Assembly: GCA_012960755.1 (NCBI GenBank)
Contig: DUAT01000009.1
Coordinates: 1-45,877 of the forward strand
Reading direction: 5' to 3'
DNA: 45,877 nt
Origin: Gammaproteobacteria bacterium
GTDB taxonomy: Bacteria > Pseudomonadota > Gammaproteobacteria > Pseudomonadales > Azotimanducaceae_A
The translations under genes and the position numbers were made by a program. Of the stretch, positions 3,921 to 37,182 are shown in pieces. The stretch's first letter is position 1. Each line of letters opens with the position of its first letter. The notes below the pieces were generated by a model, which worked only from the letters and a program-made list of their open reading frames with translations, was not told the DNA's origin and did not search any database.

Positions 3921-3924
3921 AAGC

Positions 3925-10604: not shown

Positions 10605-10668
10605 TGTTGTTTTCTTTTTCCTGGTCCGTCCAAACCGGCTGTTCTAAAGCCACTTAATCAAAACTTCC

Positions 10669-13766: not shown

Positions 13767-15324
13767 TACCAATCAATTTGATGTGGTGGTCATCGGAGCT
13801 GGACACAATGGCCTGGTGAGCGCAGCCTACCTGGCCGAATCAGGGTTGAAAGTACTGGTGCTGGAATCCTCAGGCACCATTGGTGGCGCAGCCCGCACTT
13901 GTGAATTCAGCGAGGGCTATCGGGTTTCAGAGTGTGCACATCTTGTCTATGCACTGCATCCCACCATCGTCAGGGATTTGAAGCTGACGAATTATGGCTT
14001 GAGGTATGCCGCGACCGATCTCGGCACTATCTCTCTGGGGAGCGATGGCTTGCACGTCTTAATCAAAGGAGACTCAGTCAGCGGTGATATTTCCTATGAG
14101 GATGCGGATAGCTATCGGAAATTTCGATCCAAAATGATCAAGTTCTGTCAGGTGTTCGCCACTACCCTTGAACATCAACCGCCGAGACTGATGAACGGCT
14201 CCCTGGGAGATAAATTGTCACTGTTAAAGCTAGGCTGGCAGGTCAGAAAACTGGGCAAGACAGATATGCAAGAGCTGCTTCGCATCGGTTCGATTAACAT
14301 CTACGATGTGCTTGAAGAAAGGTTTGACAACCAACTTCTCAAAGGGGCATTGTGCCTCGATGCGGTACTCGGGTCTCATACTGGTCCGCGCTCTCCAAAC
14401 ACCGTTTTGGCGTATCTGTATCGACATGTTGGCGAAACCTTTGGTTTTAATGGGCCATCTATCCCATTGGGCGGTATGGGGACCGTGGTCGAGGCTATTG
14501 CGGCGTCTGCAAAATCGTCAGGCGCAGAGCTGCGTACGAGCAGCAAAGTCGAGAAGATCCTCACGGAGGGTTCCAAAGTGGTTGGCGTGAGGCTTGAAAC
14601 CGGAGAAGAGATAAAAACCCATACCGTGGTTTCCAACGCAGATCCCAGGGCTACATTTTCATCGCTGGTGGGTTACCCTCAACTGGATACTGAATTTTCC
14701 CGGCGCGTTCATAATATTCGCATGAAAGGCAACACCGCCAAGCTGCACCTGGCCCTGGACAGCCGACCCCGGTTTACCGGCGTCGGTGAAAGTGAAACAG
14801 GCAACCGGCTGGTAATAGCGCCTGATTCTGACTATGTGGAGCGAGCTTTTAACCACGCCAAGTACAAAGAGTATTCGGACAAACCTATTGTCGAAATAAG
14901 CATCCCGAGCATCCATGACTCGACCCTCGCGCCTGCCGGTAAACACGTTCTGTCAGCCGTGGTTCAGTACGCGCCACATAACCTCCAGCAAGGCTGGTCC
15001 CAGGCAAGTGATACGTTCAAGAACCTGTTAATCGACCTGATCGAAGACTATGCGCCTGGTATCAGGCAACAGATTGTAGCCAGCGAGCTGTTAACACCTG
15101 CTGATATTGAATCTCGGTTTGGAACCACCAACGGTCACTGGCACCACGGTGAGCTGGCTCTGGATCAATTTCTAATGTTAAGACCCTTCCCCGGCATGAG
15201 CCAGTACGCGACACCTGTTCATGGTCTGTATCATTGCAGTGCCGGGTCACACCCGGGCGGCAATGTGTTGGGAATGGTAGGTCGTAACTGCGCCCGGGCT
15301 GTCATTAAAAGGGGGGACAGATAA
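13759..15324 (+). CDS. PYROXD2/CrtI-like FAD oxidoreductase, cassette 1 subunit B
   Basis: This 521-residue protein starts at ATG 13759 inside the end of subunit A. The dinucleotide-binding motif VVIGAGHNGLVSAAYLAESG (G13, G15, G18) and the C-terminal block HCSAGSHPGGNVLGMVGRN identify the same flavoprotein family as subunit A, but the middle differs (ECAHLVYALHPTIVRDL in place of NCSYVCSLLRPEITRDL). The two are therefore distinct subunits, not recent copies, and the 8-base overlap suggests 1:1 synthesis, possibly a heterodimer. Its stop overlaps the GcvT start by one base (TAATG). The counterpart in cassette 2 is 31112-32713. The substrate is unknown; an amine or N-methyl compound is inferred from context. 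Confidence 0.87.
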   Translation: MTDTNQFDVVVIGAGHNGLVSAAYLAESGLKVLVLESSGTIGGAARTCEFSEGYRVSECAHLVYALHPTIVRDLKLTNYGLRYAATDLGTISLGSDGLHVLIKGDSVSGDISYEDADSYRKFRSKMIKFCQVFATTLEHQPPRLMNGSLGDKLSLLKLGWQVRKLGKTDMQELLRIGSINIYDVLEERFDNQLLKGALCLDAVLGSHTGPRSPNTVLAYLYRHVGETFGFNGPSIPLGGMGTVVEAIAASAKSSGAELRTSSKVEKILTEGSKVVGVRLETGEEIKTHTVVSNADPRATFSSLVGYPQLDTEFSRRVHNIRMKGNTAKLHLALDSRPRFTGVGESETGNRLVIAPDSDYVERAFNHAKYKEYSDKPIVEISIPSIHDSTLAPAGKHVLSAVVQYAPHNLQQGWSQASDTFKNLLIDLIEDYAPGIRQQIVASELLTPADIESRFGTTNGHWHHGELALDQFLMLRPFPGMSQYATPVHGLYHCSAGSHPGGNVLGMVGRNCARAVIKRGDR

Positions 15325-16508
15325 TGTCGGACCAAATCCCGCCACGCCTGATGCAAACACCTTTTCATTCACGAATCGCCACCGCCTGTGAACTCAATCA
15401 ATGGGAAGACTGGAAGGGCTATACCACGCCTTCTGCGTTTACCAATGTGGAACTTGAATATTTTGCGATGCGTAATTCCGCCAGCATCTTTGACCTGACC
15501 CCAATGACAAAATACCGAATCACAGGCCCTGACGCCCATGCCTACCTGGATCGGCTGGTCACCCGTAATCTTGGCAAACTAAAGCCAGGCAGGGTGACTT
15601 ATACAGCCTGGTGCAATGATGCAGGCCAGGTGATTGATGACGGCACAATATTTCGAATCTCACGCGATAGCTTCATTCTCTGTTCCCAGGAACGCCACCT
15701 GGACTGGCTGGAATGGTCTGCACTCGGCTTTAATGTAAGCATAGAGGATGAGACCGACCGTATTGCTGCATTGTCATTCCAGGGTCCTTCAACCTGTACA
15801 ATCCTGAAAAATATGGGTCTGTATGGCATCGAGAACCTCAAGCCCTTTGACCTGACTCACTATCCGTTCGAGCAATCCGAGCTGATGGTTTCTAGAACAG
15901 GATTTACCGGTGACTTAGGTTACGAGCTCTGGGTTGATCCGGACCAGGCTGAAAAATTATGGGACCGCCTTATGGATGCGGGCGAGCAATTTGATACCAA
16001 GCCCGCCGGATCCGAAGCCCTGCAGATCGCCAGAATTGAGGCGGGGTTTCTCCAGGCAGGCGCTGATTTTGTGCCCGCTGAACAGGAGGTTCGGGCGGGA
16101 CGATCCAGATCACCCTATGAGTTGGGCCTGGGCTGGCTGGTGCACCTGAAAAAATCTCACTTTAATGGCAAGCAAGCATTACAACTGGAGAAACGGAAGG
16201 GCTCTCGTTATCGTTTTGTGAAGCTGGATGTGGCGGGAAACAAACCGGCTGAACATTCGTTTATCTACAATCGGCACCACAAGGTTGTCGGTACCGTCAC
16301 ATCAGCAGCATGGGTACCCACGGCGAAGAGGAATGTTGCTTTTGCTTCACTGGAGATGCCATGGGGTAAACCCGGTGATGAACTGACCGTCGAAATCTAC
16401 TATTTACGTGAACTGAAATGGTCCCGCGTCATGGAAAAATGTACGGTCATTGAAGGCGCAGTCTTTGATCCGGAGAGACGCCACGCAACTCCACCAACCT
16501 GCCAATAG
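15324..16508 (+). CDS. GcvT-like tetrahydrofolate-dependent aminomethyltransferase, cassette 1
   Basis: This 394-residue protein of the glycine-cleavage T-protein superfamily has ATG at 15324 behind AGGGGGGACAG. The folate-binding N-terminal region includes FDLTPMTKYRITGPDA (56-71) and WCNDAGQVIDDGTIF (96-110), with Asp residues at the place where GcvT binds folate. SRTGFTGDLGYELWV is the conserved middle motif. Superfamily members take a methylene or methyl group from an amine or sulfonium and hand it to THF (GcvT, DMGDH/SARDH C-terminal domain, DmdA). Standing alone directly after two FAD oxidases, it resembles the GcvT half of dimethylglycine or sarcosine dehydrogenase encoded as a separate subunit. 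No other glycine-cleavage genes are nearby, so a housekeeping GcvT role is unlikely. A paralogue is at 29860-31110. Confidence 0.88.
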   Translation: MSDQIPPRLMQTPFHSRIATACELNQWEDWKGYTTPSAFTNVELEYFAMRNSASIFDLTPMTKYRITGPDAHAYLDRLVTRNLGKLKPGRVTYTAWCNDAGQVIDDGTIFRISRDSFILCSQERHLDWLEWSALGFNVSIEDETDRIAALSFQGPSTCTILKNMGLYGIENLKPFDLTHYPFEQSELMVSRTGFTGDLGYELWVDPDQAEKLWDRLMDAGEQFDTKPAGSEALQIARIEAGFLQAGADFVPAEQEVRAGRSRSPYELGLGWLVHLKKSHFNGKQALQLEKRKGSRYRFVKLDVAGNKPAEHSFIYNRHHKVVGTVTSAAWVPTAKRNVAFASLEMPWGKPGDELTVEIYYLRELKWSRVMEKCTVIEGAVFDPERRHATPPTCQ

Positions 16509-16518
16509 ATTGCAACCC

Positions 16519-18615
16519 ATGACACCCCTGGAGCCCCTGTTATGCCCAGCTTCTATCGCGGTATTGGGTGCATCGCAAAGAAAAGGCTCAGTCGGCAATG
16601 AGGTAGTACTGAACCTGATGAACGGTAAATATGCAGGGCAACTCTTCCCGGTCAACCCCCGCTATGAACTTGTCGAGACCCATCATTGTTATCCAACCCT
16701 GGATGATCTGCCGATTACCGTAGACCATGTGATTCTCACTGTTGGGGACGAAAATATCGAATCCGCATTAGTTTCAGCCATAGCACACGGTGCCAGGGCC
16801 TGTACCATATTCACCAACCTTTTCCTGGATTCGGACGAGGAACCCGGACTAAAAACAAGAATCTCAAACCTCGCAAAAGAAGCGGGCATTGCGTTGTTGG
16901 GCGGAAACAGTATGGGATTTTATAATTTCGTGAATAGTGTCTGGGTTTGTGGGTTTGCCACCCGGTCTCACTCTGCTACGGGTAATGTCGCGCTTATCAG
17001 TCAATCCGGCTCGGGCATGGCGGGTATCCTGGATGCGGAAGAGAGAATCAATTTCAATTTCGCCGCATCAACAGGCCAGGAACTCATTCTCGGCCTGGAG
17101 GACCTACTGCTGTACGCCATCGACCTGCCTTCAACCCGGGTTGTAGGTCTGTTTATGGAAACCTGCCGTAAACCTCTACTGCTGCTACAGGCACTGGAAA
17201 AAGCAAAGGCCCGGCGGATTCCAATCGTCGCAATCAAGGTGGGAAAATCGGAGCTGGCTGCCGAGCTGGGTGTTTCCCATTCCGGCGCACTCGCTGGGCG
17301 CGATGACGTATTCGAGGCTGTGTTTGACAGGTATGGCGTACAACGTGTCGCTGACATGAATCAGCTTGCGACAGCCCTCATCATGTTTGCGCAACCGCAC
17401 AAGGTTTCAACCGGCGGTCTTGCAACGATCCACGATTCAGGTGGAGAAAGACAATTATTGGCGGACCTGGCATCTGAGCTCAATGTTCAACTGGCCGTGC
17501 TAAACAAACACAGTCAATCAGAACTCGACAAGGTTCTAGAGCCAGGGATGCCTGCTGTGAATCCGTTAGATGCCTGGAACAAAGGCGGATCAGACGCTGA
17601 TGAGATCATGTCTAGGAGCTTTTCTATTCTCATGTCAGACCCGGATACCGCCTTCGGCGCGGTCGTCATGGACCGAGGCCCGGGCGGTCTTATTCACCAG
17701 GAATATCGTGATTATCTCACCGCCGCTCATCAAGCGTCTGCAAAGCCTGCTTTTCTGGTCACCAACCATCAGGGAGTGGGTAACGATAAGCTGGCCATCG
17801 ACATGACCAGGGCAGGGTTTCCGGTACTCGACAGCCTTCCGGCTTTTCTGGTCGGTGCCCGATGCTTGATAGATTATCGGGATTACTTCATCGTCGACAT
17901 TTCCATGCAACCTCGACTTCCTGAAAAAACCACGGCCCGCTGGAATCGGCATTTCGCTCAGAAACCTGCAACCAGTGAGTATATCGCCGCTAAATGGTTA
18001 TCGGAGTGTGGTATTCCAATGTCGGTTTCCTACGAGGTGACCAGTACTACGGACCTGCAGTTGTTGTCTAACAAACTGACATTCCCCACTGTGCTGAAAA
18101 CAGCTGAGCCAGGCATCGTTCATAAATCAGCAGCAGGTGGGGTGAAACTTGATATTGAAACCCCCCAGGCGCTGGAACTCGCGTTTCAGCAGCTTTCCAC
18201 TCAATTTGGACCCAATGCCATCGTTGCATCGATGGATTCCGAACCGGGTCTTGAAATGATCCTGGGGTCGATTGACGACAGTGAATTTGGTCCCGTCGTG
18301 ATTATGGGATTAGGCGGCACGCAAACTGAACTGCTAAGCGATGCAGTGATGGTTTTACCACCTTTTGGTGCCGGTGCCGCTAAACATGCAATCAGCAAAT
18401 TAAGGCACCATGACCTGTTCGATAATCCTTCCAGAAAGGCAAAGGGTCTACCTTCATATGACATAGACCACTTCTGTCATATAGCAGCAATATTCTCGAT
18501 GATTGTTGTTGAATTCTCCGATGTCTTTTCTGAAATTGAGATCAATCCCATCAAAGTGCTTGAAAAGGGTTGTTTAGGTCTTGACGCCCTGGTGGTTATG
18601 AGGAATGTGTCATGA
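16519..18615 (+). CDS. NDP-forming acyl-CoA synthetase (acetyl-CoA synthetase ADP-forming family)
   Basis: This 698-residue protein from ATG 16519 is chosen over a TTG at 16450 that would run into the GcvT gene. The order of domains is CoA-binding Rossmann (IAVLGASQRKGSVGNEV), succinyl-CoA-ligase-like domains with VALISQSGSGMAG and the candidate phosphohistidine at H254 in GVSHSGALAGRDD, then an ATP-grasp domain with HKSAAGGVKLDI and VIMGLGGTQTELL. This family interconverts acyl-CoA plus NDP plus phosphate with the free acid plus NTP; in catabolic clusters it activates a carboxylate. It follows the GcvT gene by 10 bases and overlaps the hydratase gene by 4, so it is in the same operon. It would activate a carboxylic product of the flavoprotein step (inference). 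Confidence 0.88.
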   Translation: MTPLEPLLCPASIAVLGASQRKGSVGNEVVLNLMNGKYAGQLFPVNPRYELVETHHCYPTLDDLPITVDHVILTVGDENIESALVSAIAHGARACTIFTNLFLDSDEEPGLKTRISNLAKEAGIALLGGNSMGFYNFVNSVWVCGFATRSHSATGNVALISQSGSGMAGILDAEERINFNFAASTGQELILGLEDLLLYAIDLPSTRVVGLFMETCRKPLLLLQALEKAKARRIPIVAIKVGKSELAAELGVSHSGALAGRDDVFEAVFDRYGVQRVADMNQLATALIMFAQPHKVSTGGLATIHDSGGERQLLADLASELNVQLAVLNKHSQSELDKVLEPGMPAVNPLDAWNKGGSDADEIMSRSFSILMSDPDTAFGAVVMDRGPGGLIHQEYRDYLTAAHQASAKPAFLVTNHQGVGNDKLAIDMTRAGFPVLDSLPAFLVGARCLIDYRDYFIVDISMQPRLPEKTTARWNRHFAQKPATSEYIAAKWLSECGIPMSVSYEVTSTTDLQLLSNKLTFPTVLKTAEPGIVHKSAAGGVKLDIETPQALELAFQQLSTQFGPNAIVASMDSEPGLEMILGSIDDSEFGPVVIMGLGGTQTELLSDAVMVLPPFGAGAAKHAISKLRHHDLFDNPSRKAKGLPSYDIDHFCHIAAIFSMIVVEFSDVFSEIEINPIKVLEKGCLGLDALVVMRNVS

Positions 18616-19508
18616 AGGATCTGGATTCGCGAAGCGACAGGTTAGCCCCAGGATCTACATCCGAGGAAATTGAGATGACGAATATCAGGTTTGAAACTCT
18701 ACTGTTCAAGGTCGAATCCGGAATTGCATCCATCGCTCTGAATCGGCCAGCGAAACTCAATGCTGTCAGCGGACCGATGATCAATGAACTTCATCAATGC
18801 CTTGACCTGGTCGCTACTGACGATGCTATACGTGCCGTTGTGTTAAGTGGCGAAGGTCGCGCTTTTTCAGCGGGTTTCGATCTTGAGTCCGATCCTGAGG
18901 CGCAAAACGATCCGGAATTCTGGAACGAAGAGCTCCGTCGCGATTTTGATATCATTATGAAGTTTTGGGACTGCCCCAAGCCAACCATCGCTGCAGTGCA
19001 TGGCTACTGCCTCGGCAGCGCGCTGGAAATAACCTTGGCATGTGACGTCACCATATCCACCGACGACTGCTTCTTTGGTGAACCAGAAGTCAAACATGGC
19101 GACGGTATCATTTGCCTGATTTTACCCTGGATTATCGGCGTCAAGGCAGCCAAGGAAATGTTGCTGACAGGCGACGATCGAGTCAGCGCCGAACGAGCGT
19201 TGGCGCTGGGGATAATTAACAAAATTGTGACGAAGGATGATTTGACTAAGGAAGCGCTGGACCTTGCAAAACGAATCGCTGCAAACGACCGCCTGGCAGT
19301 CATGCTGACCAAGAAGGCAATCCACCGCGGCTTTGAGATCATGGGAATGCGGGAAGCCCTGCTGGAAGCGATGGAAACGGATATCGTGATCACTAACACC
19401 GAAACCCCTGAGTCCCGGGCGTTTTCGAAAGTCAGTCGCGAGCAGGGCGTAAAAGCAGCTCTGGCCTGGCGCGCCAAGTCATTGTCGATAGACCAAAAAC
19501 CTTTGTAA
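18612..19508 (+). CDS. Enoyl-CoA hydratase/isomerase family protein
   Basis: This 298-residue crotonase-fold protein shows ALNRPAKLNAVSGPM, the oxyanion-hole segment GRAFSAGFDLE, and both catalytic Glu positions of classical hydratases (LGSALEITLACD and FGEPEVKHGDG). The Gly-rich block that normally follows the second Glu is absent (GDGIICLILP), so the exact reaction is uncertain. The start at 18612 overlaps the upstream stop (ATGA) with GAGG 8 bases before it. An internal ATG at 18675 also has a strong site (GAGGAAA) and matches the usual family N-terminus, giving 277 residues. It probably works on the CoA ester made by the preceding synthetase. Confidence 0.88.
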   Translation: MKDLDSRSDRLAPGSTSEEIEMTNIRFETLLFKVESGIASIALNRPAKLNAVSGPMINELHQCLDLVATDDAIRAVVLSGEGRAFSAGFDLESDPEAQNDPEFWNEELRRDFDIIMKFWDCPKPTIAAVHGYCLGSALEITLACDVTISTDDCFFGEPEVKHGDGIICLILPWIIGVKAAKEMLLTGDDRVSAERALALGIINKIVTKDDLTKEALDLAKRIAANDRLAVMLTKKAIHRGFEIMGMREALLEAMETDIVITNTETPESRAFSKVSREQGVKAALAWRAKSLSIDQKPL

Positions 19509-25063: not shown

Positions 25064-25564
25064 ATGAATAAGCGCAAACTATCCTGGTTTTTTACTCTGT
25101 TCCTCTTTCCCGTTGGCTCTGTCTAGGCGAGTGGTTCGAATGTCTCAATAACCGAGGTTCATGTCGACGACGAAGGTGACATGATTTCCGTTATAGGTAA
25201 AAACCTCTGTGGTCCGGACACGAGCGCCACTTTGGGTATCACCGAATCAATAGTTGAAGCAGACATTTTTTCTTGCGACCCGCTCTTTGGCGGGCTTGAT
25301 TTAATGATACTTAACGATTTCGACATTCTGGAGTCTGGTTCTTATCGCCTCACTGTAGATAACTCGAAGGGCACCAGTAAGAAGTGTGGCAGCAAGAAAC
25401 AAAGTCATAAGAAGTATAGTTATAAAAAGCGCAGCCACAAGAAGCACGGTTATAAGACAAGTGGGAAATCTGATAAGTCATGCGATGCCGATAAATTCGA
25501 ATTCGCCTTTGATCTTGGCGGCGGGGCAGTGGGCCAGGTAACGGTATTACGCAAGACGATTTAG
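25064..25564 (+). pseudogene. Secreted IPT/TIG-like protein gene with in-frame amber codon
   Basis: ATG at 25064 has a strong ribosome site (AAGGAGATTGAT). The frame encodes a signal peptide (MNKRKLSWFFTLFLFPVGSV), then TAG at 25124-25126, then continues open in the same frame to 25564. A CAG in place of TAG would give VQA followed by Ser, a perfect signal-peptidase I site, so a single C-to-T change explains the stop. The following 80 or so residues have an IPT/TIG-like beta pattern (ISVIGKNLCG, SGSYRLTVDNSKG), then Lys-rich pentapeptide repeats, then KFEFAFDLGGGAVG. Intact relatives are typically surface or secreted proteins. The gene is a recent pseudogene, a readthrough case or a sequence error. 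Without readthrough, only the 20-residue leader is made. Confidence 0.65.
25388..25462 (+). repeat. Five 15-base repeats encoding Lys-rich pentapeptides
   Basis: Inside the amber-interrupted gene, five consecutive 15-base units encode GSKKQ, SHKKY, SYKKR, SHKKH and GYKTS. They share the pattern Ser/Gly, His/Tyr/Ser, Lys, Lys or Thr, variable. The segment is highly basic and rich in Tyr and His, so it could bind polyanions or metals if expressed. Confidence 0.7.
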
Positions 25565-25601: not shown

Positions 25602-27506
25602 TCAACAGAGAATTCCTGATTTACTATCAGACGCGATAAGACCGTTAGACTCACCCGGAGGGAAAAGTAAACTCGCCACAGGAATCCTGCTTCGAACAAA
25701 GTCACCAAACTGTTTTACCAACACCTCCTTATCCAACAGCACACCCACAGAATAGCTACTCGATGCGAGACCTTCCTGCACGGACGCCGTCAGCACATTA
25801 TCCTCGTGCTGCACCTGCGCGTTGATTCGATTGTTGAGGTAACGGACCGCCTTCATCTCCCGACTCCTGTCGGTGGCGGATTTATGCAGCGCATAAGAGC
25901 GACCTCGTAGTTGCGACTTCCCTGGCCCGATGGGGAGGATCTGAAAGAAGTCCATTTTCTCGGGATATATATCTATAAACGTATTCGGATACAGCACGTA
26001 ATAGGTCCATCGACGTCTCATATGTGCAGGTAAATGCGTTTGCTCAAGCAATAGTCGATGATACTTCTCGACACTCCAGTTAGGTTTTGGGGTTTCACGC
26101 ATCGCATGGCTGAGGCGGGATATTTCAGTATCAAAAGGCTGCCGGTCGTACTCATCGGCCATCAGGGCAGAGAGACCCTTGCGGCCCATGAAGAAGTGAT
26201 AGTCCTCGAGGAAATTCTCAACCCCATTTTTCCAGTCGACATCGATATCCTGGGTCCAGAAGGAATGCTCGTCTTCCCGGCCAATATCGCGAATCATCTC
26301 AGGTGTTCGATAAGCTTCAAATTCCTTATTTACCGGCGCCATGCGCTCTACAACCCCGGGACCCTCCGACCTGAACCTGATGAAGACAAAACCTGCATAG
26401 ACTTCACAATCGATGGGATGGAGCGAAAAATTCGCAGCGTCATGCTCCCTGAAACTCGACGGAAACGCGACGGCAATTCGTTCACCATCGAGATTGTAGG
26501 TCCAGCCGTGGTATGGACATACCAGTTTTCCGGGGCATACCCCCTGCTCACCGGCCACTATCATATGAGCGCGATGCCGACAGACATTGTGAAACGCCTT
26601 GATCGAGCCACTCTGCGTTCGCACCACAAAGGCGCGTTCACTGAACAATTGAAAAGTGACATAACGACCCGCACGCTTGATATCGCTGGTATGGCACACA
26701 ATCTGCCAGGACGACATGAATATCCTTTCTTTTTCCAGTTTGAAAAAATTCTCACTGCTATAGATCCATGCTGGCAGGGTGTAAGTGAGGTTTTCTTCCA
26801 CGTTCGGTAACGGGTCCGATTCGGATGCCGGGACCTGCTCGACAGGCATTTCAAAACACCAGGGAAACACACTGGCGAGAAACGCGGAACACTGGCATCT
26901 GGCCTGGACAAGGTCAAAGTCCTCACCCTCGAAGAGGATTTCCTGCCAGATTTCATCAACCAAACCGCAGATCGCCCTGGAAATTGCTTTTGCATTTAAC
27001 TGCCGCTGTTTTCCTGCACTGCTGATAATTTCATCGCAAACGCTCAACACGGTTTGCGCATATTTGCGCTCCCGATTACCGCATATGTCGTGGTAATCCT
27101 CTCGGCTGTTGGCTTCAGAAAAAAACGCATACCATACTGCCACTTTTTTAAAGTCGATGATTTCGTCACTAAGCGATGCCTCGATAAGCGCGGTCAGTTG
27201 TTTGACGGGGTCCTGACCCACTCCTTGTGTCGCCTGATCAACAGTGAATTCAAATTCTTCGGCAACAGATCGCAGCGTCGCCAGCAGCAAGGCTTCCTTG
27301 GTTTCAAAATGAAAGTTCACTGTGCCTGCGGTTAACCCGGCCAGCGCCGATATCTTTGCCAGTGTCAGGTTGGAAAAACCGTGGATTGATATGGCGGTCA
27401 TTGTTGCATTGATCAGCAGCATGCGCCGCTCTGCCTGCAAAGTCAGATTTGGTACTGTCTGGTTCGGTACTGTTTGTGGCATGGCTTTTTTTGTCAGGGG
27501 GTTCAC
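25602..27506 (-). CDS. BetI-like TetR regulator fused to a Rieske oxygenase with a missing iron ligand
   Basis: One uninterrupted 634-codon frame holds two domains. Residues about 25-215 are a TetR repressor of BetI type, with a helix-turn-helix in LTLAKISALAGLTAGTVNFHF (48-68). Residues about 240-634 are a ring-hydroxylating Rieske oxygenase alpha subunit. The Rieske cluster ligands are intact (C309, H311, C330, H333). In the mononuclear iron site, H437 (ENFLEDYHFF) and D569 (HEDN) are present, but the second His, five residues after H437, is Arg 442 (codon CGC, one base from CAC). The catalytic iron may therefore be lost. An internal ATG at 26849 (Met 220) sits exactly before the Rieske part and could give a separate protein. 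The start is GTG 27506 or ATG 27482. The gene is divergent from the PuuB-like gene, with a palindrome in the shared promoter. Possible roles are a redox/ligand-sensing repressor or a decayed gene merger. Confidence 0.87.
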   Translation of the reverse strand: MNPLTKKAMPQTVPNQTVPNLTLQAERRMLLINATMTAISIHGFSNLTLAKISALAGLTAGTVNFHFETKEALLLATLRSVAEEFEFTVDQATQGVGQDPVKQLTALIEASLSDEIIDFKKVAVWYAFFSEANSREDYHDICGNRERKYAQTVLSVCDEIISSAGKQRQLNAKAISRAICGLVDEIWQEILFEGEDFDLVQARCQCSAFLASVFPWCFEMPVEQVPASESDPLPNVEENLTYTLPAWIYSSENFFKLEKERIFMSSWQIVCHTSDIKRAGRYVTFQLFSERAFVVRTQSGSIKAFHNVCRHRAHMIVAGEQGVCPGKLVCPYHGWTYNLDGERIAVAFPSSFREHDAANFSLHPIDCEVYAGFVFIRFRSEGPGVVERMAPVNKEFEAYRTPEMIRDIGREDEHSFWTQDIDVDWKNGVENFLEDYHFFMGRKGLSALMADEYDRQPFDTEISRLSHAMRETPKPNWSVEKYHRLLLEQTHLPAHMRRRWTYYVLYPNTFIDIYPEKMDFFQILPIGPGKSQLRGRSYALHKSATDRSREMKAVRYLNNRINAQVQHEDNVLTASVQEGLASSSYSVGVLLDKEVLVKQFGDFVRSRIPVASLLFPPGESNGLIASDSKSGILC

Positions 27507-27554
27507 TTTCCCGCTAGCTCACTTCAGAATACCCGAATTGAACAACCATATTGT

Positions 27555-27583
27555 TAATTAAACGGCTGTTTAAATTCTATCAA
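27555..27583 (-). promoter_or_regulatory. Candidate promoter with embedded palindromic operator for the TetR-Rieske gene
   Basis: On the minus strand, TTGATA (27583-27578) and TAATTA (27560-27555) are spaced 17 bases apart, like a -35/-10 pair. The palindrome TTAAAC-GGCT-GTTTAA (27558-27573) fills the spacer and overlaps the -10. A second small inverted repeat, AACAA-CCATA-TTGTT (27541-27555), abuts it. A TetR-family dimer bound here would block both this promoter and transcription toward 27669. The site assignment is by eye only. Confidence 0.5.
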
Positions 27584-27668: not shown

Positions 27669-28940
27669 ATGAAAAACCCGGAAGAACATACAGACTCCTA
27701 CTACGCCGCCACCCGCAACGATTCCACCACCTACCCACAATTACAGGGAACTTGTGAAACTGAAATTTGCATTATCGGGGGTGGTTTTACCGGCGTCGCC
27801 GCTGCCCTGACCCTGGCTGAAAGAGGCCATTCCGTGACTCTGCTCGAGCAGCACAGGATCAGTTGGGGAGCTTCCGGTCGAAACGGCGGCCAGTTAATCC
27901 ACGGCCTGGGTGGTTCCCGGCATCTCGAACCGCTGCTGGGCAGGGACCTGATCTGGAAGCTTCATTATCGTGGTAACGATATCATTAAGGAACGGATCAG
28001 GAAATACGACATTGATTGTGACCTGAAACAGGGGTATATCGAAGTCGCGTCGAAACCCCGACATATGGAAGAACTCCGGGAAGACTTTGCTGAACATGAA
28101 GAGCGAGGCCTGAGTCATCACCTGAAAATGATCGACAGGGATGAAATCCGGTCGGTGCTGGGTACCGATGCGTACATGGGAGGCATGACCAACGATCTGA
28201 ATGGCCACCTACACCCGCTCAATCTCTGCGCCGGGGAAGCACGGGCTGCAGCAGGTTTAGGCGCAAGCATTTTTGAGCAAAGTGAAGTGACGGATATCGT
28301 GCACGGCGACAAGGTCAGGGTAAAGACGCGTCAGGGCACAGTGATTGCCGACAAGGTACTGATCGCCGGAAACGCCTACCATCACCTGGAGCAGAAAAAA
28401 CTGTCCGGCCTGGTGTTCCCCGCGGGTAGTTTCATTATTGCAACCGAGCCTTTGAGTGACGATCTGATCCAGTCGATCAATCCCCTCGATCTGGCTGTCT
28501 GTGACCTTAACCATATACTCGACTACTACCGAATGTCGGCGGACAATCGCATGTTATTTGGCGGCCGCTGTAACTATTCGGGCCGGGTGCCGAGCAGCAT
28601 ACAGGCCAGCATGCTGCCAAGAATGCTGGCCATCTATCCACAACTTGAGGGCAAACAAATTGATTACGAATGGGGCGGCAACATTGGCATCGTGATTAAG
28701 CGAGTCCCCTTGTTGGGCAGAGTAACGAAAAACGTATTTTATTCCATGGGTTACTCAGGACATGGTATTGCACCAACGCATATTGCTGCAGAGGTGATGT
28801 CCGATGCGCTGGAAGGCAATGATGAGATTCTGCAGGCCTACGAGAAAATCAACCACTTTCGGATCCCGGTAGGGCAGTGGTTTGGAAACCAGATCGTCGC
28901 ACTGGGTATGCTTTATTACAGAACCCTCGATCTGTTTTAG
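27669..28940 (+). CDS. puuB: Gamma-glutamylputrescine oxidase-like FAD oxidoreductase (PuuB family)
   Basis: This 423-residue flavoprotein starts at ATG 27669 behind AGGACGTT. From memory it closely follows E. coli PuuB: an EHTDSYYAAT N-terminus, FAD motif CIIGGGFTGVAAALTLAERG (G37-G42), WGASGRNGGQL, HLHPLNLCAGEA, GNAYHHLEQK, LDYYRMSADNRMLFGG and MGYSGHGIAPTH. PuuB oxidises the terminal amine of gamma-glutamylputrescine to the aldehyde, with release of ammonia and hydrogen peroxide. None of puuA, puuC or puuD is visible in the window, so the substrate may be another amine of the DAO family. It is divergent from the TetR-Rieske gene, 162 bases apart, and likely under its control. Confidence 0.88.
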   Translation: MKNPEEHTDSYYAATRNDSTTYPQLQGTCETEICIIGGGFTGVAAALTLAERGHSVTLLEQHRISWGASGRNGGQLIHGLGGSRHLEPLLGRDLIWKLHYRGNDIIKERIRKYDIDCDLKQGYIEVASKPRHMEELREDFAEHEERGLSHHLKMIDRDEIRSVLGTDAYMGGMTNDLNGHLHPLNLCAGEARAAAGLGASIFEQSEVTDIVHGDKVRVKTRQGTVIADKVLIAGNAYHHLEQKKLSGLVFPAGSFIIATEPLSDDLIQSINPLDLAVCDLNHILDYYRMSADNRMLFGGRCNYSGRVPSSIQASMLPRMLAIYPQLEGKQIDYEWGGNIGIVIKRVPLLGRVTKNVFYSMGYSGHGIAPTHIAAEVMSDALEGNDEILQAYEKINHFRIPVGQWFGNQIVALGMLYYRTLDLF

Positions 28941-29859: not shown

Positions 29860-31110
29860 TTAATACATTGCAGGCGGCTTGGCAGTCCGTCTCGGGTGGG
29901 ACCAGAACGGCTCTTCAGACACCGAACATTGTGCCCACGTAGCTCGCCACTCCAGTTCTTTCTGGTAGTAAATCTCAGCCCAGATGTCACCGGGTGCCTT
30001 ACCCTGCTTATACTCGATATCTGCCATGGTCAGGTTAGCCTTCAATATCGGGGACCAGATGTTCGTTTTGATCGTGCCAATGCGCTGGCCATTTTTGGCA
30101 TCATACAAAAATGAATCCGTCGGCGGTTTGTTGCCTTCAACTTTCAGCTTCACAAGCCGCCGCTTGATAGGATTACCCTGCTCCCTGCGCAGTGCCCGCT
30201 TGCCGGTGAAGTAACCCTTCTCAAAATTTACCAGCCAATCCAGACCCAATTCAAAAGGTGAGCGATCATGCTCTGCACGGACAGTGGTTTCCGCCGTATT
30301 GAAATCATCGCCGGGCAAAATAAACCCCGCCTCAACACGGACGATCTCCAGCGCCTCCAATCCAATCGGTTTCACATCGTACAAACCACGCGCCTTGACC
30401 CCGAAAATCGTATCCCAGAGTTTCAAGGCGTTGTCAGTACCTGTCCACAGTTCATAACCGAGATCACCGGTGTACCCTGTGCGGGAAACCGTCAGCTCAA
30501 ACCCCAGCATGGTAGTCTGCATGATTTGAAACGGTTTCAGTTGACCAAGATCTTCTATGCCAGCTTCCGATAGCACAGCGCATGCGGTCGGACCCTGTAC
30601 TGATAGCGCCGCAACATCATGGGTCTCCTCGATAATATTGACATCCATCCCTAAACTGGAAATCAGCAGCCAGTCCAGTTGATGGTGCTGGGAGCACAGG
30701 CGGTATTCACTCTCGGCCAAACGAAAAATAGTGCCATCGTCCAGCACCTTGCCATCATCATTACACCACACCACATACGTCACCCGGTTGACTCGTAACT
30801 TCGATATGTTCCGAACAACCAACCGGCTGAGAAACCTGTTGGCATCAGGCCCGCTGATTCGATACTTCTCCATCGGTGTCAGGTCCATCACACTGCATGA
30901 ACTGCGAATGGCAAAGTATTCGGATGCCAGCGTGTCGTAGCACCGGGCGGTCTGGTAGCCATTCCAGGAAGACCAGCTTTTTATCTGACTGATGTCATCG
31001 ACACGGACATGAAATGGCGAATGCTTGAGCACTTGCCTGAAATCATGGGCCTCACCTCTCTGGGATTCCGAGGTCTGTTCCATGGTCTTTTCCCAGGACT
31101 GTCCCGCCAT
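29860..31110 (-). CDS. GcvT-like tetrahydrofolate-dependent aminomethyltransferase, cassette 2
   Basis: This 416-residue paralogue of 15324-16508 shares MDLTPMEKYRISGPDA, VVWCNDDGKVLDDGTIF with its folate-site Asp pair, and SRTGYTGDLGYELW. It differs by an N-terminal extension; ATG 31083, with GGGAAA upstream, would shorten it by 9 residues. Its start is one base beyond the stop of the upstream flavoprotein B, as in cassette 1, where the stop and start overlap by one base. Cassette 1 is plus strand and cassette 2 minus strand. The predicted role is transfer of a one-carbon unit from the flavoprotein product to THF. The substrate is unknown and may differ from cassette 1. Confidence 0.87.
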   Translation of the reverse strand: MAGQSWEKTMEQTSESQRGEAHDFRQVLKHSPFHVRVDDISQIKSWSSWNGYQTARCYDTLASEYFAIRSSCSVMDLTPMEKYRISGPDANRFLSRLVVRNISKLRVNRVTYVVWCNDDGKVLDDGTIFRLAESEYRLCSQHHQLDWLLISSLGMDVNIIEETHDVAALSVQGPTACAVLSEAGIEDLGQLKPFQIMQTTMLGFELTVSRTGYTGDLGYELWTGTDNALKLWDTIFGVKARGLYDVKPIGLEALEIVRVEAGFILPGDDFNTAETTVRAEHDRSPFELGLDWLVNFEKGYFTGKRALRREQGNPIKRRLVKLKVEGNKPPTDSFLYDAKNGQRIGTIKTNIWSPILKANLTMADIEYKQGKAPGDIWAEIYYQKELEWRATWAQCSVSEEPFWSHPRRTAKPPAMY

Positions 31111-31111
31111 G

Positions 31112-32713
31112 CTATCTCGCCCCCATCGCCAGTATCCGCTGCGCCGCGTTGTGACCCGGGATGCCAGTCACACCGCCACCCGGGTGTGCGGCAGCACCAC
31201 ACAGGAATAAGCCATCAATCGGTGTATCGTACTGCGCCGTCCCATGAACCGGCCGCATCATAAAAGACTGGTCAATGGTCATTTCGCCATGATGCCAGTG
31301 CCCGCCGGTTATATTGTATTCTGCCTCGATATCAACCGGTGTGAGTATCTGTGACGCAACAACCCGGGAGGCAAAACCCGGTGCATAATCGCTAATCAAC
31401 GCGGTGACTTTGTCCAGGAAGCGTTCCTTTTCTTGTAGCCTGTTTTGAAGATCCGGTTGCAGACCGGTTTGCAGATCATCCTGCTGCCAGCCATTCTTGA
31501 GATGGTAGGGCGCAAAGCTCGCGCAGATCGACATCACATGGTGCCCGGAAGGTGCCAGCTCCGGATCAGTAATGCTCGGTATGGTAATCTCCAGCACCGG
31601 GTGTTCGGAATACTCCCCGTACTTGGCATGATTAAACGCGTGTTCGAGATACCGCATACTGGGCGCAACGATGAGCCGTTGACTGAGCTGTTCGGTTGAC
31701 AATCCTTCTATGCTGGGCAAGCCATTCAGCGCCAGATGAATTTTTGCCACGTTGCCGTTGGTTCGCGTTGTGTGAATACGACGGGCAAACATGGCATCGA
31801 GTTCCTGCGTCCCAACCAGATTCAAAAAGGTGTTTTTTGCGTCAGCGTTGGAAATGACAAGATCAGCGTTAACCAGTTCGCCAGTCTCCAGTTCCACGCC
31901 GGAAGCCCTGCCGTCATCAACTAGAATACGTTTTACCCTGGCGCTGGTCCGTATCACAACACCTGCCTTCTGCGCCGATTCAGACAGCATCCTGGCTATC
32001 TGGCCCATACCGCCAAGTGGGAGCGCTGCTGCGCCACCAATCTCTCCACGCAAGCGAAGCAGGTAAGTGAGCACGGTGGTTGGCGTGCGGGGTCCCATGT
32101 GGTGCCCGATAATGGCATCCGTGGCAATGGCTCCCTTTAACCTTTCGTCATCAAAAATTTCGTTCAAGACGTCAAAGATATTGATGCCACCGACCCTTAG
32201 GAACTCGCGCATGGAACCTGCGCCAAGCCCAAAGCGGAGTTTCCAGCCGAGTCTGGCCAAGGTCAGCTTATCCTTAAGGTCCATATCCTTCAGTCGCGGC
32301 GGCTTGTTCATCATCAGCGGTTCAAGCGCTTCTGCGTATGACAGGAATTCCTGTTTGAACGCCGGGTAGGCTTTGAGGTCTTTGTCGCTTAAGCCCTGAC
32401 CAGAAACCGAATTCTCACCCAGCGTCAGATGATGTCCCTGACGGTCAAGAGATATCGTATCAATAGCAAGCCAGGGTCCTGGACCAGCACCTGGCAGGTT
32501 GAGATCCCTGCAGACTTTCGGGCTCAGTGAATGCAGTATATGCGCCAGTCCCGAGACCTGGTAACCCGGTGCAAAGCTGATCGTAGACGCGGCACCTCCG
32601 ACAGTTTCGCGCGCTTCCAGGATCTGCACTTTGTAACCCGCCCTGGCTAAATAGGTCGCACAGACCAGTCCGTTGTGACCGCCTCCAACCAGAACTGCAG
32701 ACTGACTAGTCAT
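31112..32713 (-). CDS. PYROXD2/CrtI-like FAD oxidoreductase, cassette 2 subunit B
   Basis: This 533-residue protein starts at ATG 32713 (GAGGA upstream), not the longer frame to 32782, which runs far into subunit A. The FAD motif is VLVGGGHNGLVCATYLARAG (G10, G12, G15). B-type signatures shared with cassette 1 are GLAHILHSLSP, GGINIFDVLNE, HWHHGEMTIDQ and CGAAAHPGGGVTGIPGHN. The sequence is clearly paralogous to 13759-15324 but more diverged than the A pair. It overlaps subunit A by 8 bases, the same overlap length and the same ATGACT start as in cassette 1. It would act with A2, perhaps as a heterodimer, on an amine-type substrate (inference). Confidence 0.87.
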   Translation of the reverse strand: MTSQSAVLVGGGHNGLVCATYLARAGYKVQILEARETVGGAASTISFAPGYQVSGLAHILHSLSPKVCRDLNLPGAGPGPWLAIDTISLDRQGHHLTLGENSVSGQGLSDKDLKAYPAFKQEFLSYAEALEPLMMNKPPRLKDMDLKDKLTLARLGWKLRFGLGAGSMREFLRVGGINIFDVLNEIFDDERLKGAIATDAIIGHHMGPRTPTTVLTYLLRLRGEIGGAAALPLGGMGQIARMLSESAQKAGVVIRTSARVKRILVDDGRASGVELETGELVNADLVISNADAKNTFLNLVGTQELDAMFARRIHTTRTNGNVAKIHLALNGLPSIEGLSTEQLSQRLIVAPSMRYLEHAFNHAKYGEYSEHPVLEITIPSITDPELAPSGHHVMSICASFAPYHLKNGWQQDDLQTGLQPDLQNRLQEKERFLDKVTALISDYAPGFASRVVASQILTPVDIEAEYNITGGHWHHGEMTIDQSFMMRPVHGTAQYDTPIDGLFLCGAAAHPGGGVTGIPGHNAAQRILAMGAR

Positions 32714-34319
32714 CACCAAAGTCCTCGGGAACCGTGTTTGGTTTACCAAGATCCCGGAGAATTTCCCGCGCTGCGTTGGCACCGGGTGCGCCCATAACCC
32801 CGCCCCCAGGGTGTGTTGATGAACTACACATATACATGTTACTCACGGGCCCGCGGTACTGTGCATAACCCGGAAAAGGACGGTTGAACATGAGTTGATC
32901 AAGGGTGAGTTCTCCCTGAAAAATATTCCCCTCTGTCAGGCCAACTTCGTCTTCAATTTCCCGCGGTGTGCGAACTTCCCGATGCAGGATGAGTTGCTTG
33001 AAGTTGGGGCTGTAGTTTGCGATCTGATTAATAACCGCATCACCAAAGGCATCCCTTTTTTCACGGGTCCAACCACCTTCAACCTCAACCGGACAGTACT
33101 GGACGAAGACGCTCATCATATGTTTACCCGGTGGCGCCATCGTCGGGTCATACTGGGTGGGTACAAGACAATCAACATAGGGATCTCTGGACCAGTGATC
33201 GTCCTTCCAGTCATCATAGGCACGTTCAAGCCGTTCGAGTGTGTCCGTAAAATGCATATGTCCCAGCGTGAGGGGTGACCCTTTGGGTAAAGCAGGAAAG
33301 TCCGGCATGCCGTCGAGTGCAATATTAACCTTGCCGGACGAACCTCGAATCTTGAAGTTCAGGGCTCGCTCGTACAGATCATCCGGCACATCCTTTGGAT
33401 CCATCACTTTGAGAAACGTACGCTTCGCATCAAGGTTCGAGATCACAACCGAAGCTTCGATTTCCTCGCCGGAATTCAGCACCACGCCGGTCGCCCTTCT
33501 TGACTCAACCAGGATTTGAGCAACTTCAGCCTTGGTACGGATTTCACCACCAGAGGATTCAAATGATGCTGCGATGGCCCTGGCTACAGAGCCCATGCCG
33601 CCCCGGGCGAATCCCCATGACCCTATGTTGCCATCAATATCACCCATCGCATGATGCAGCAGGACATAAGCCGTACCAGGTGAATAAACACCCAGCCCGG
33701 TGCCGATAATACTGCCTCCGGAGAAGTGTGCGAGGATGACGTCACTTTCAAAGTACTCTTCCAGGTACTCTGCAATAGACATGGTGAAAAAACGAATGAA
33801 CTCGTAGATCTGGCTTTCTGTCAGACGGTAGAAACTTTTTAGCAGGTAGGCAAATTCCATCGCATCCCGGGGTTTGAATGACGCCGGATCCGGCGGTGTT
33901 CGCAACAGGAAACCGCGAATTAAACGGCACCATTTCATCAGGTCCGCATCAAACCGTATCGATGCATCGGCATCACGGATGGAATGTCGTGCTATTTCCC
34001 GCCGCCGGACCGTCGTTTGGTGATAGCTGCCGAAATAGTCGCCGTCTTGTTTAAAGGTCGTGCTGCCTTGCAAGGGTACGACTTCCAACCCATGCTGGCC
34101 CAGATTGAGTGCCTGGTATATTTCCGGGCGAAACAGGCTGCAAACGTAAGAACAGTTTGAGTACTGCCAATCCTCGTGCAACTCACGGCTGGCCGTGGCA
34201 CCCCCGATATAATCATTCTTTTCGACCACCAGTACGGATAGCCCGGCCCTGGCAAGGAAAGCGGCGTTGGTGAGACCGTTGTGCCCCGCGCCAATGACGA
34301 TTGCATCGTAGTTTTTCAT
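32706..34319 (-). CDS. PYROXD2/CrtI-like FAD oxidoreductase, cassette 2 subunit A
   Basis: This 537-residue protein from ATG 34319 has a good ribosome site (AGGTGAT); the frame open to 34439 adds an unsupported leader. It is one residue shorter than cassette 1 subunit A and matches it along its length: VIGAGHNGLTNAAFLARAG, SNCSYVCSLFRPEI, RTPPDPASFKPRD, GVYSPGTAYVLLHH, LTEGNIFQGELTLDQL, MYMCSSSTHPGGGVM and the acidic C-terminus PEDFGDD. This high likeness marks duplication of a whole cassette. It heads the A-B-GcvT operon on the minus strand and is divergent from the omega-aminotransferase gene across 213 bases. It probably performs the FAD-linked oxidation of the cassette. Confidence 0.88.
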   Translation of the reverse strand: MKNYDAIVIGAGHNGLTNAAFLARAGLSVLVVEKNDYIGGATASRELHEDWQYSNCSYVCSLFRPEIYQALNLGQHGLEVVPLQGSTTFKQDGDYFGSYHQTTVRRREIARHSIRDADASIRFDADLMKWCRLIRGFLLRTPPDPASFKPRDAMEFAYLLKSFYRLTESQIYEFIRFFTMSIAEYLEEYFESDVILAHFSGGSIIGTGLGVYSPGTAYVLLHHAMGDIDGNIGSWGFARGGMGSVARAIAASFESSGGEIRTKAEVAQILVESRRATGVVLNSGEEIEASVVISNLDAKRTFLKVMDPKDVPDDLYERALNFKIRGSSGKVNIALDGMPDFPALPKGSPLTLGHMHFTDTLERLERAYDDWKDDHWSRDPYVDCLVPTQYDPTMAPPGKHMMSVFVQYCPVEVEGGWTREKRDAFGDAVINQIANYSPNFKQLILHREVRTPREIEDEVGLTEGNIFQGELTLDQLMFNRPFPGYAQYRGPVSNMYMCSSSTHPGGGVMGAPGANAAREILRDLGKPNTVPEDFGDD

Positions 34320-34343
34320 ATCACCTGTCAACCATTGCCAAGA

Positions 34344-34375
34344 ATTTTCTCCAACAACCATTTTCTCCAACAACC
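34344..34375. repeat. Two tandem copies of a 16-base repeat upstream of cassette 2
   Basis: ATTTTCTCCAACAACC occurs twice in direct tandem (34344-34359 and 34360-34375), 25 bases before the subunit A start in the divergent promoter region. It could be a duplicated regulator site or simple slippage. No second copy was noticed near cassette 1. Confidence 0.6.
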
Positions 34376-34532
34376 ACGGTGCAATCCGGAAATGTACCAC
34401 CCCAAAAACTCCGATGCTTATGTGCCGATAGGCACACAAATCCTACCCTCGCGCAATGATGAAACTGATTCGCGAACCTCTTCAACCGTGTTAGGGTAGA
34501 TGCAAATGTTACCAACTCTAGAGTAGATCAAC

Positions 34533-36024: not shown

Positions 36025-37182
36025 ATGGATACCGATAAAAAGGGATTTAACAATCTGACGGAGGTGATTCCTTCACTTGCGGCCAAGAGTTACTTTGATG
36101 AACGAACCTACGAGTCTGAATTAACGTCAATCTGGTACCAGAACTGGATATACGCCGGTCGAGCCGACGAGATCAAAAATGTCGGTGATTTCAAATCAGT
36201 CAGGCTCGGGTCCCAGAATATTCTTCTCGTTAGAAGCACAGATCTGGTAATTAATGGTTTTTTTAACACCTGCAGACACCGGGGTTCCAAATTGTGCACG
36301 CAAGACAAGGGCAATCTTAAAACCAAGCATATTTCCTGCCCCTATCATCGATGGACCTATTCGCTCGACGGTGCCCTGGTCAAGACCCCGCGCCTCACGC
36401 CGACTGACGACTTTGACAGGTCTAACTATTCGTTATACCCGGTGGCCGTGGAACAATGGGGTGGTTGTTTGTTCGTTAACCTGGCGGGAGAAAACGCAAC
36501 TTCATTTGACCTGTCGATGGATCCATCCTATGACCTTCTTGACAACTGGCCATTGCAGGATTTGAAGCTGGCCCATTCATACCAGAGTCGTCTGCAGTGC
36601 AACTGGAAGATTTTCTGGGAGAACTTCGTCGAGTGCTATCACTGTCCGGGTTTGCATCCTGAATTGTGCGATCTTGTCCCTATTTACAAACGAACCCAGG
36701 TCAGCCACGACGATGAACCGGATTGGGAGAATCACCAGCAGGACACCGATCCAAGCTATCGGGGTGGCATAAAAACTGGCGCCGGTTCCTGGTCAATGGA
36801 CGGAAAAATCCACGGCTGTGTGTTTCCAAAACTGAGTACAGAAGAACGGCAAATCGGGTTTGTCTACGTTCAAAATCTACCGTCAGTATTCGTTGTTGCA
36901 CACGCAGACTATGTGAGGATCGTCTCGATCCTGCCGGACGGACCGGATGGTATTCTGCTCAAAGTCGAGTGGCTGCTTTCTGAGGAGTCACTGGCGAAAG
37001 AGAACCTGGCCCTGGCAAAAATCGTCGATTTCGGTCTCTTGATTATTCAGCAGGATGCCACTATATGCGAACTCAACCAGCAAGGTGTCCAGTCAATTCC
37101 CCATCACAATGGTGTGCTTATGCCCCAGGAATATGATGTTGCGAATTTTCATCGTTGGGTCCAAAAACACGTGAGTCCGTAA
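36025..37182 (+). CDS. Rieske ring-hydroxylating oxygenase alpha subunit, GbcA-like
   Basis: This 385-residue protein has a complete set of metal ligands. The Rieske 2Fe-2S site is C83, H85 (NTCRHRGS) and C105, H108 (ISCPYHRW). The mononuclear iron site is H206 and H211 (FVECYHCPGLHPE) plus D344 (IIQQDATIC), and bridging E203 is present. This is the class that includes glycine betaine monooxygenase GbcA and stachydrine and carnitine oxygenases, which N-demethylate or cleave quaternary amines and release formaldehyde or an aldehyde. No reductase gene is visible in the window, so electrons must come from elsewhere. The start is ATG 36025 with a weak ribosome site. The 3' end overlaps the convergent symporter gene by 65 bases. 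The exact substrate is uncertain. Confidence 0.9.
   Translation: MDTDKKGFNNLTEVIPSLAAKSYFDERTYESELTSIWYQNWIYAGRADEIKNVGDFKSVRLGSQNILLVRSTDLVINGFFNTCRHRGSKLCTQDKGNLKTKHISCPYHRWTYSLDGALVKTPRLTPTDDFDRSNYSLYPVAVEQWGGCLFVNLAGENATSFDLSMDPSYDLLDNWPLQDLKLAHSYQSRLQCNWKIFWENFVECYHCPGLHPELCDLVPIYKRTQVSHDDEPDWENHQQDTDPSYRGGIKTGAGSWSMDGKIHGCVFPKLSTEERQIGFVYVQNLPSVFVVAHADYVRIVSILPDGPDGILLKVEWLLSEESLAKENLALAKIVDFGLLIIQQDATICELNQQGVQSIPHHNGVLMPQEYDVANFHRWVQKHVSP

Follow-up and report, generated by a model that had tools for sequence, protein, structure and literature searches.

A TetR repressor and a Rieske oxygenase in one reading frame: a conserved fusion family with an operator-like dyad in predicted amine-catabolism settings

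The fusion gene and its domains

Contig DUAT01000009.1 (assembly GCA_012960755.1, Gammaproteobacteria bacterium), analyzed over 45,877 bp (the window), encoded on its minus strand a TetR repressor of the BetI type and a Rieske oxygenase alpha subunit joined in a single chain of 634 amino acids (aa; positions 25602-27506, GTG start at 27506, stop ending at 25602), as displayed by open reading frame (ORF) calls, Pfam, protein and genome searches, and alignment. Judging by the alignment, translation may start at Met9 instead of at the GTG. A previous sequence-only reading of the window had described one 634-codon frame uniting both proteins without a stop, the strand being left unstated. This frame was real, carried four Pfam domains, all scoring above their gathering thresholds, and contained no stop codon or frameshift at residues 215-240.

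The helix-turn-helix domain TetR_N (residues 31-76, 27279-27416; PF00440, 35.5 bits for a cut-off of 24) was followed by a BetI-type C-terminal ligand and dimer domain (TetR_C_6, residues 101-214, 26865-27206; PF13977, 43.1 bits for a cut-off of 27), a 23-residue linker (residues 217-239, 26790-26858), a Rieske [2Fe-2S] domain (residues 266-346, 26469-26711; PF00355, 64.6 bits) and a mononuclear-iron catalytic domain (Ring_hydroxyl_A, residues 414-608, 25683-26267; PF00848, 98.3 bits), all on the minus strand. A single-chain AlphaFold model (39 aligned sequences; mean pLDDT 87.3, pTM 0.63) displayed a helical TetR C-terminal domain and a linker predicted to be disordered at residues 224-232 (pLDDT <50), which suggests two well-formed halves whose relative placement is not fixed.

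The whole-protein search scored the 7996 best candidates, and at least 839 proteins matched the full-length window protein at E <= 1e-3. Detailed comparison covered the 120 proteins listed, including the window's own entry, and the same four Pfam domains were found in all 120. Apart from that entry, the listed relatives shared 47-70% identity across 92-98% of the window protein. Residues T48, G57 and F67 of TetR_N, as well as W125, F128 and R135 of the TetR C-terminal domain, were kept in 120/120 of the listed proteins, and linker length ranged from 17 to 53 residues (window included).

Metal sites of the oxygenase half

The Rieske ligands C309, H311, C330 and H333 (CXH...CX2H), the bridging residue E434 and the iron ligands H437 and D569 were invariant in the 120 proteins listed. 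According to the accessible text of PMC9508527, the corresponding ligands in YeaW are Cys89/His91/Cys109/His112 and His211/His216/Asp325, and Glu208 is positioned for transfer between subunits. The match in spacing makes position 442 of the fusion equivalent to YeaW His216, the second mononuclear-iron histidine. Codon 442 (26181-26183, minus strand) encoded Arg in the window, whereas each of the 119 other sequences compared had His at this position, so that a 2-His-1-carboxylate iron site was complete in these 119 and incomplete in the window protein (H437 and D569 present, Arg442). Arg442 was accompanied by P487L and S591L at columns 97% conserved in the other sequences, and eight of the 120 sequences displayed more such departures. 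The relatives thus look catalytically complete and the window copy does not, though Arg442 could stem from an error in the assembly consensus. The window protein is best described as a relative of Rieske oxygenases by descent, of doubtful oxygenase activity.

Distribution of fused and split forms

The genome-contig scan yielded 79 loci, from 80 of 120 confirmed stretches. Among the first 38 loci, 32 had TetR and Rieske domains in one frame, under record titles of both Gamma- and Alphaproteobacteria. The other six consisted of L022, L024, L027, L029 and L036, with a Rieske gene but no TetR, and L038, with an interrupted Rieske frame and no TetR match. The remaining 41 loci, used as controls, carried 27-33% identical Rieske genes and no TetR match. 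Near-duplicates were present (Inquilinus-like L018, L020, L021 and L026; L019/L028; L003/L010; L007/L009), and locus counts are therefore not counts of independent events. The fusion of L018, from a record titled Mycobacterium sp. KBS0706, was almost identical to those in records of Inquilinus limosus, and the title may be wrong. In samples of whole genomes from two classes, the TetR subfamily was uncommon, with matches at E <= 1e-25, fused or unfused, in 8 of 369 genomes for the first class and in 11 of 289 for the second; these samples include known fusion carriers and the figures are not prevalence estimates.

The fusion was thus confirmed as a conserved family, arising neither by chance nor by assembly error. 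The sequence-only reading had expected the same two-domain order in other genomes, as was found among both proteins and loci, and had named relatives always made of two adjacent genes as the observation that would speak against it. Two adjacent genes as the rule were ruled out by the 32 in-frame fusions. Exceptions occurred: proteins P0213 and P0125 represented the two halves separately, apparently on one 642,333-bp database contig, in a split resembling a frameshift close to the end of the TetR domain. In L111 (154-2124), L112 (150-2121) and L109 (1447-3488), a Rieske gene was followed on the same strand by an unfused TetR gene of the same wider subfamily, possibly a precursor-like arrangement.

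An unfused second Rieske gene stood directly after the fusion in L001 (3730-4941), L002 (8383-9543), L003 (11776-13146), L005 (12026-13426) and L010 (11944-13140), and the start of one was visible in L106. These second genes formed a separate clade in the Rieske tree and possibly encode a partner subunit or the enzyme of a second step.

A palindromic operator-like site upstream of the fusion

A 16-bp dyad, YTNAAYNNNNRTTNAR, first spotted by listing palindromes upstream of each fusion, was exactly matched before 24 of 32 fusion genes (mean 0.1 and maximum 1 in 100 dinucleotide shuffles). Tolerating one mismatch raised the count to 29 of 32 regions (2.8 when shuffled), and two mismatches to all 32 (16.9 when shuffled). 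The 32 upstream regions came from 31 loci and the window; L020, which had no upstream DNA, was left out of operator counts and kept in neighbor counts. The dyad was absent, even at two mismatches, from four sister loci without TetR. Since the consensus had been read off the same sequences, an automatic palindromic motif was learned on 14 loci and applied to unseen regions: 13 of the 18 held-out regions, window included, scored above the 99% level of mononucleotide shuffles, and the other five reached p values of 0.02-0.03.

When whole loci were scanned with a model built from the sites of 23 of them, the best site lay within 330 bp before the TetR domain of the fusion in 27 of 31 loci, and a site of at least 14 bits occurred anywhere in only 2 of the 41 control loci. 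Ten further sites of at least 14 bits were located. By position, eight stood upstream of standalone TetR paralogs (L021, L025, L026, L028, L030, L034, L035); another preceded the second Rieske gene in L034 (19853, 24.6 bits), and the tenth lay amid the Pot genes in L032. Site pairs at up to one mismatch (n = 34) were exactly 20 bp apart in 12 cases and 11 bp apart in six, the other 16 lying at other distances; 20 bp represents about two helical turns.

The best site of the window, scored with a model built without it, was a dyad TTAAACGGCTGTTTAA at 27558-27573 (candidate operator O1, 21.8 bits; the next best site reached 10.1 bits). Exactly 20 bp from it, a candidate weaker operator (O2, 27538-27553) scored 9.4 bits; about 1.7 such sites are expected per window by chance, so that O2 is not significant alone, but its spacing matches that of other loci. 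Both sites lay between the fusion and a divergent oxidoreductase gene of the DAO family, and no further site clearly above chance was found when the window was scanned for a regulon. We predict from sequence that the dyad is an operator at the promoter region of the fusion itself.

Genomic setting

The divergent gene, sharing its promoter region with the fusion, encoded a flavin adenine dinucleotide (FAD) oxidoreductase (27669-28940, plus strand; PF01266, 237.8 bits). A DAO gene divergent to the Rieske or fusion gene was also found in L001, L022, L024, L027 and L029. Around this pair, the window harbored two sets of amine-catabolism-like genes. On the minus strand, a GcvT-like folate-binding aminomethyltransferase (29860-31110; PF01571) lay next to two FAD amine-oxidase-like genes (31112-34439, as 31112-32782 and 32706-34439). 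On the plus strand, 12150-19508 held two more amine-oxidase-like genes, a second GcvT, a coenzyme A (CoA) ligase and an enoyl-CoA hydratase. An identification of these repeated neighbors as corrinoid methyltransferases was rejected.

Two class-III aminotransferases and a PotFGHI-like polyamine ABC transporter (7658-11838, minus strand), the ATPase of which passed TIGR01187 (411.3, cut-off 355.6), were also encoded. An MTHFR-like protein of one-carbon metabolism (3925-4809, minus strand), a GFA-like (glutathione-dependent formaldehyde-activating) protein (38924-39328, plus strand) and a second, unfused, GbcA-like Rieske oxygenase (36025-37182, plus strand) completed this inventory.

Relatives of these genes were compared between 32 fusion loci (476 kb) and the 41 control loci (639 kb). 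GcvT relatives were found in 13/32 fusion loci versus 1/41 control loci (3/41 with the second GcvT query), amine oxidases in 10/32 versus 0/41, CoA ligase in 11/32 versus 0/41, enoyl-CoA hydratase in 10/32 versus 0/41 and PotF in 8/32 versus 1/41. PotG was not specific (10/32 versus 8/41). None of the 32 fusion loci contained relatives of the window genes for an SSF symporter, PhyH, an amidohydrolase and a methyltransferase. Fusion loci other than the window added genes resembling gamma-glutamylputrescine synthetase (L003, L007) and PuuC (L003), all scoring below curated cut-offs. This setting points to amine demethylation or polyamine-type catabolism, of an amine whose identity is conjectural. 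No gene for PuuA, the gamma-glutamylputrescine synthetase of the Puu polyamine pathway, was present among the window ORFs scanned.

Two proteins of the TPR-sulfotransferase type (1950-3971, minus strand; 4965-6983, plus strand) flanked the MTHFR-like gene. Downstream, the fusion was adjoined by an ORF of 127 aa (25181-25564, plus strand) with a repeated Lys/His/Ser/Tyr-rich stretch and no Pfam or NCBIfam match. Another ORF, of 250 aa (26058-26810, plus strand), lay antisense to the fusion, had no Pfam match and is probably spurious.

Probable loss of TetR and replacement of Rieske by GNAT

All 48 fusions in the Rieske tree fell in one clade (SH-aLRT 96). Sister genes without TetR were nested in this clade, beside the window, and most likely lost their TetR half; in the one such genome searched (G007, of L024), no TetR match was found at E <= 1e-15. 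In the TetR tree, 47 of 48 fusions were inside a clade. L106 stood outside on weak support, yet inside in the Rieske tree, a possible second fusion event. Both trees were quick searches on a hand-picked protein subset, with SH-aLRT as the sole support and long-branch warnings.

The search with the TetR half alone, which reached proteins of up to about 378 aa and so no full Rieske fusions, displayed TetR-GNAT acetyltransferase fusions as the top 23 of 100 listed matches (50-57% identical where near full-length). The seven of these proteins included in the TetR tree were nested among the Rieske fusions, at two places, and more than one exchange may have occurred. For P0190, the GNAT half compared, the closest structures were 2eui and 8a9o, the latter named polyamine acetyltransferase. 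The dyad was present at up to one mismatch in 6 of 10 TetR-GNAT loci, three times as pairs 20 bp apart. Relatives of DAO, GcvT or aminotransferases lay within about 1.5 kb in 7 of 10 (29-34% identity for the aminotransferases). A DAO gene 58-60% identical to that of the window was divergent to the TetR-GNAT gene in L118 and L121, in the same layout as in the window. Tree nesting, dyad and window-like neighbors together indicate that the enzyme half was exchanged in the same type of locus.

Some members of the subfamily carried other C-terminal parts. TetR proteins of L099 (1246-2154), L091 (1246-2154) and L126 (1441-2646) had a short tail resembling, by eye, an eroded Rieske domain, in which Pfam found no domain. 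Those of L103, L104 and L105 (338-346 aa) had an extra C-terminal extension of about 130 aa, with no further Pfam match in L103 and L104, the two scanned.

Proposed function and alternative explanations

Fusion to a repressor probably makes the enzyme a controller of its own pathway as well. The function that we favor, and hold to be reasonably likely, is that of an autogenous repressor-enzyme resembling PutA in function and built from unrelated parts. The tandem 16-bp dyad that separates the fusion gene from the divergent DAO oxidoreductase gene would be bound by the TetR half, and both genes would thereby be repressed. Repression would be lifted when an amine, either a product or a substrate of quaternary, methylated or polyamine-like type, occupies the BetI-type pocket. 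On its flexible tether, the Rieske half would act as an oxygenase similar to CntA or stachydrine demethylase and attack the same or a related amine, although turnover by the window copy itself is less assured. The sensor of the inducer would thereby be physically joined to the enzyme removing it, and repression would return once the amine has been consumed. In at least one exchange, a GNAT similar to a polyamine acetyltransferase, presumably also a consumer of amines, replaced the Rieske half. Computation shows the conservation of the fusion, of the metal ligands in relatives and of the operator-like dyad, the enrichment of amine-catabolism neighbors and the GNAT exchange, while DNA binding, repression, the amine, the shared ligand and turnover by the window copy are predictions.

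Several observations weigh against this autogenous repressor-enzyme. With Arg442 at an iron-ligand position, catalysis by the window copy appears doubtful, and no reductase was found in the scan of the window ORFs, which covered all but three overlapping ones and most of those below 150 aa; the gene may sit elsewhere in the genome. The dyad was not exact in 8 of the 32 upstream regions and no sigma-70-like promoter was found at the window operator; its occurrence before standalone TetR paralogs in seven loci indicates an operator of the wider TetR subfamily, not of the fusion alone.

The amine setting is imperfect too. Within the DNA compared, 19 of the 32 fusion loci lacked GcvT and 22 of 32 lacked amine oxidases, and the DAO relatives, found in 7/32 fusion loci versus 0/41 controls, were only about 31% identical. 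Family cut-offs were not reached by the transporter (ATPase 479.5 versus 613 for PotG; PotF match 362.3 versus 636), the second Rieske oxygenase (NF058607, 202.7 bits versus 670), the gamma-glutamylputrescine-synthetase-like (PuuA) genes of L003 and L007 (201 and 196 bits versus 650) or the PuuC-like gene of L003 (below its curated cut-off). Among the TetR-GNAT loci, 4 of 10 had no dyad at up to one mismatch. The only GNAT-type NCBIfam match of P0237 was an aminoglycoside acetyltransferase, so far below its cut-off (42.9 versus 305) that the polyamine label comes down to the single comparison made with P0190.

The two halves might be joined for co-expression and fixed stoichiometry only, the repressor and the enzyme each working in the ordinary way and independently of the other. 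Such a simple tether, which we consider unlikely, would agree with the variable and predicted disordered linker, with the unfused TetR proteins of the subfamily sharing the same dyad, with the unfused TetR genes that L109, L111 and L112 carry immediately behind a Rieske gene, and with the sister clade that lost TetR altogether. However, the fusion was kept across loci titled Gamma- and Alphaproteobacteria and, in at least one case, a different enzyme took the place of its partner within a similar cluster. Retention and exchange together suggest that being tethered to an amine-consuming enzyme matters. A joining produced by assembly or sequencing would explain the apparent separation of P0213 and P0125, a split that itself looks like a frameshift, but the fusion recurred in all 120 proteins listed and, among the first 38 loci, in 32, which refutes an artifact for the family and leaves it a negligible probability.

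The other alternatives concern what the Rieske half does. It could serve as a sensor, its redox state or ligand occupancy being relayed to the DNA-binding half while catalysis is secondary or lost. The window copy, with all cluster ligands kept and Arg at one mononuclear-iron position, would fit such a role, as would L099, L091 and L126, whose eroded-looking tails may be the best hint that the C-terminal half matters without catalysis. Yet the catalytic site was complete in the other 119 of 120 sequences, the GNAT relatives regulate, if at all, without a cluster, and the linker is predicted to be flexible, so that we regard a Rieske sensor as quite improbable. The sequence-only reading had proposed that transcription responds directly to the redox state of the cluster. 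This was not supported, given a variable and predicted disordered linker, a TetR half that keeps its own BetI-type ligand domain and the replacement of Rieske by GNAT: relatives with the same type of operator (6/10) and window-like neighbors (7/10) show that the TetR module does not need a redox centre. Its other proposal, a quaternary-amine ligand, became plausible given that the closest structures are the quaternary-amine oxygenases CntA and stachydrine demethylase; control of transcription by occupancy of the oxygenase pocket, like redox coupling, is at most a possible addition in the Rieske branch.

The window copy alone may also be a dead oxygenase turned repressor with a passenger domain, its relatives being active. 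This is a tentative explanation, somewhat on the improbable side, and one compatible with an autogenous repressor-enzyme as the function of the family. Arg442, P487L and S591L, a number of departures exceeded in only eight of the 120 sequences, and the second Rieske oxygenase encoded at 36025-37182 speak for it, but the other metal ligands and the remaining frame were kept, and a single difference could be an assembly error. A bolder extension of the autogenous repressor-enzyme, rather unlikely in our judgement, is a portable TetR module tethered to different inducer-consuming enzymes (Rieske, then GNAT), with the state of the enzyme feeding back on DNA binding; Rieske trimers combined with TetR dimers would then form a hexamer holding both operators 20 bp apart.

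A large family in which the dyad is conserved, some members have naturally lost the repressor and others have swapped the enzyme represents a ready comparative set on the tethering of sensors to enzymes. It could be used to ask what tethering buys the cell and whether DNA binding reads out the state of the enzyme. Under the proposed function, proteins currently named only 'SRPBCC family', 'Rieske 2Fe-2S domain-containing' or 'AcrR family' would also gain an assigned mode of regulation and probably an amine substrate.

Comparison with known systems

To our knowledge, enzymes bearing their own DNA-binding repressor domain are few, and we know of none in which a TetR repressor is joined to a Rieske oxygenase. 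The sequence-only reading had likewise regarded the arrangement as not previously described, and indeed no TetR-Rieske or TetR-GNAT fusion was described among the titles and abstracts listed by a literature search, the scope of which left out preprints and most subscription papers. In the accessible main text of PMC5882156, the word 'Rieske' was absent.

The TetR half resembled BetI, the choline-responsive TetR repressor, and carried a BetI-type C-terminal domain. Membership in BetI was ruled out by scores of 86.3 bits versus 201.3 for TIGR03384 and 84.6 versus 118 for NF001978, and the fusion further differs in being attached to an enzyme. For the Rieske half, sequence and fold searches alike gave as best matches the CntA/YeaW carnitine monooxygenase (CntA first in the fold search, TM-score 0.83 normalized by target) and stachydrine demethylase (Stc2), both of quaternary-ammonium chemistry. 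The bridging Glu, E434, corresponds to YeaW Glu208 in the accessible part of PMC9508527. Unlike CntA and Stc2, the fusion displayed only about 21% identity over the fold, an added TetR domain and, in the window copy, one iron histidine fewer; unlike CntA, it was accompanied by no reductase of the CntB type in the scanned ORFs of the window. The top NCBIfam match of the fusion protein was the glycine betaine monooxygenase GbcA (NF058607), membership in which was ruled out by a score of 135.7 bits versus a cut-off of 670. The TetR-GNAT fusions (P0190, P0237 and others, with names including Dasania and Halioglobus) had their junction at the same place, by eye, with GNAT instead of Rieske as the enzyme half.

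The closest functional parallel may be PutA, described in the accessible text of PMC5293562 as a catabolic oxidoreductase with an N-terminal DNA-binding domain, acting as autogenous repressor of its own pathway. The parts are non-homologous, TetR instead of ribbon-helix-helix and a Rieske non-heme iron oxygenase instead of a flavoenzyme, and nothing in the fusion bears on the membrane switching of PutA. Like trifunctional PutA (ribbon-helix-helix, proline dehydrogenase and P5C dehydrogenase), the fusion, by its sequence, combines a DNA-binding domain and a catabolic oxidoreductase in one chain, and like PutA it is predicted to have an operator at its own promoter.

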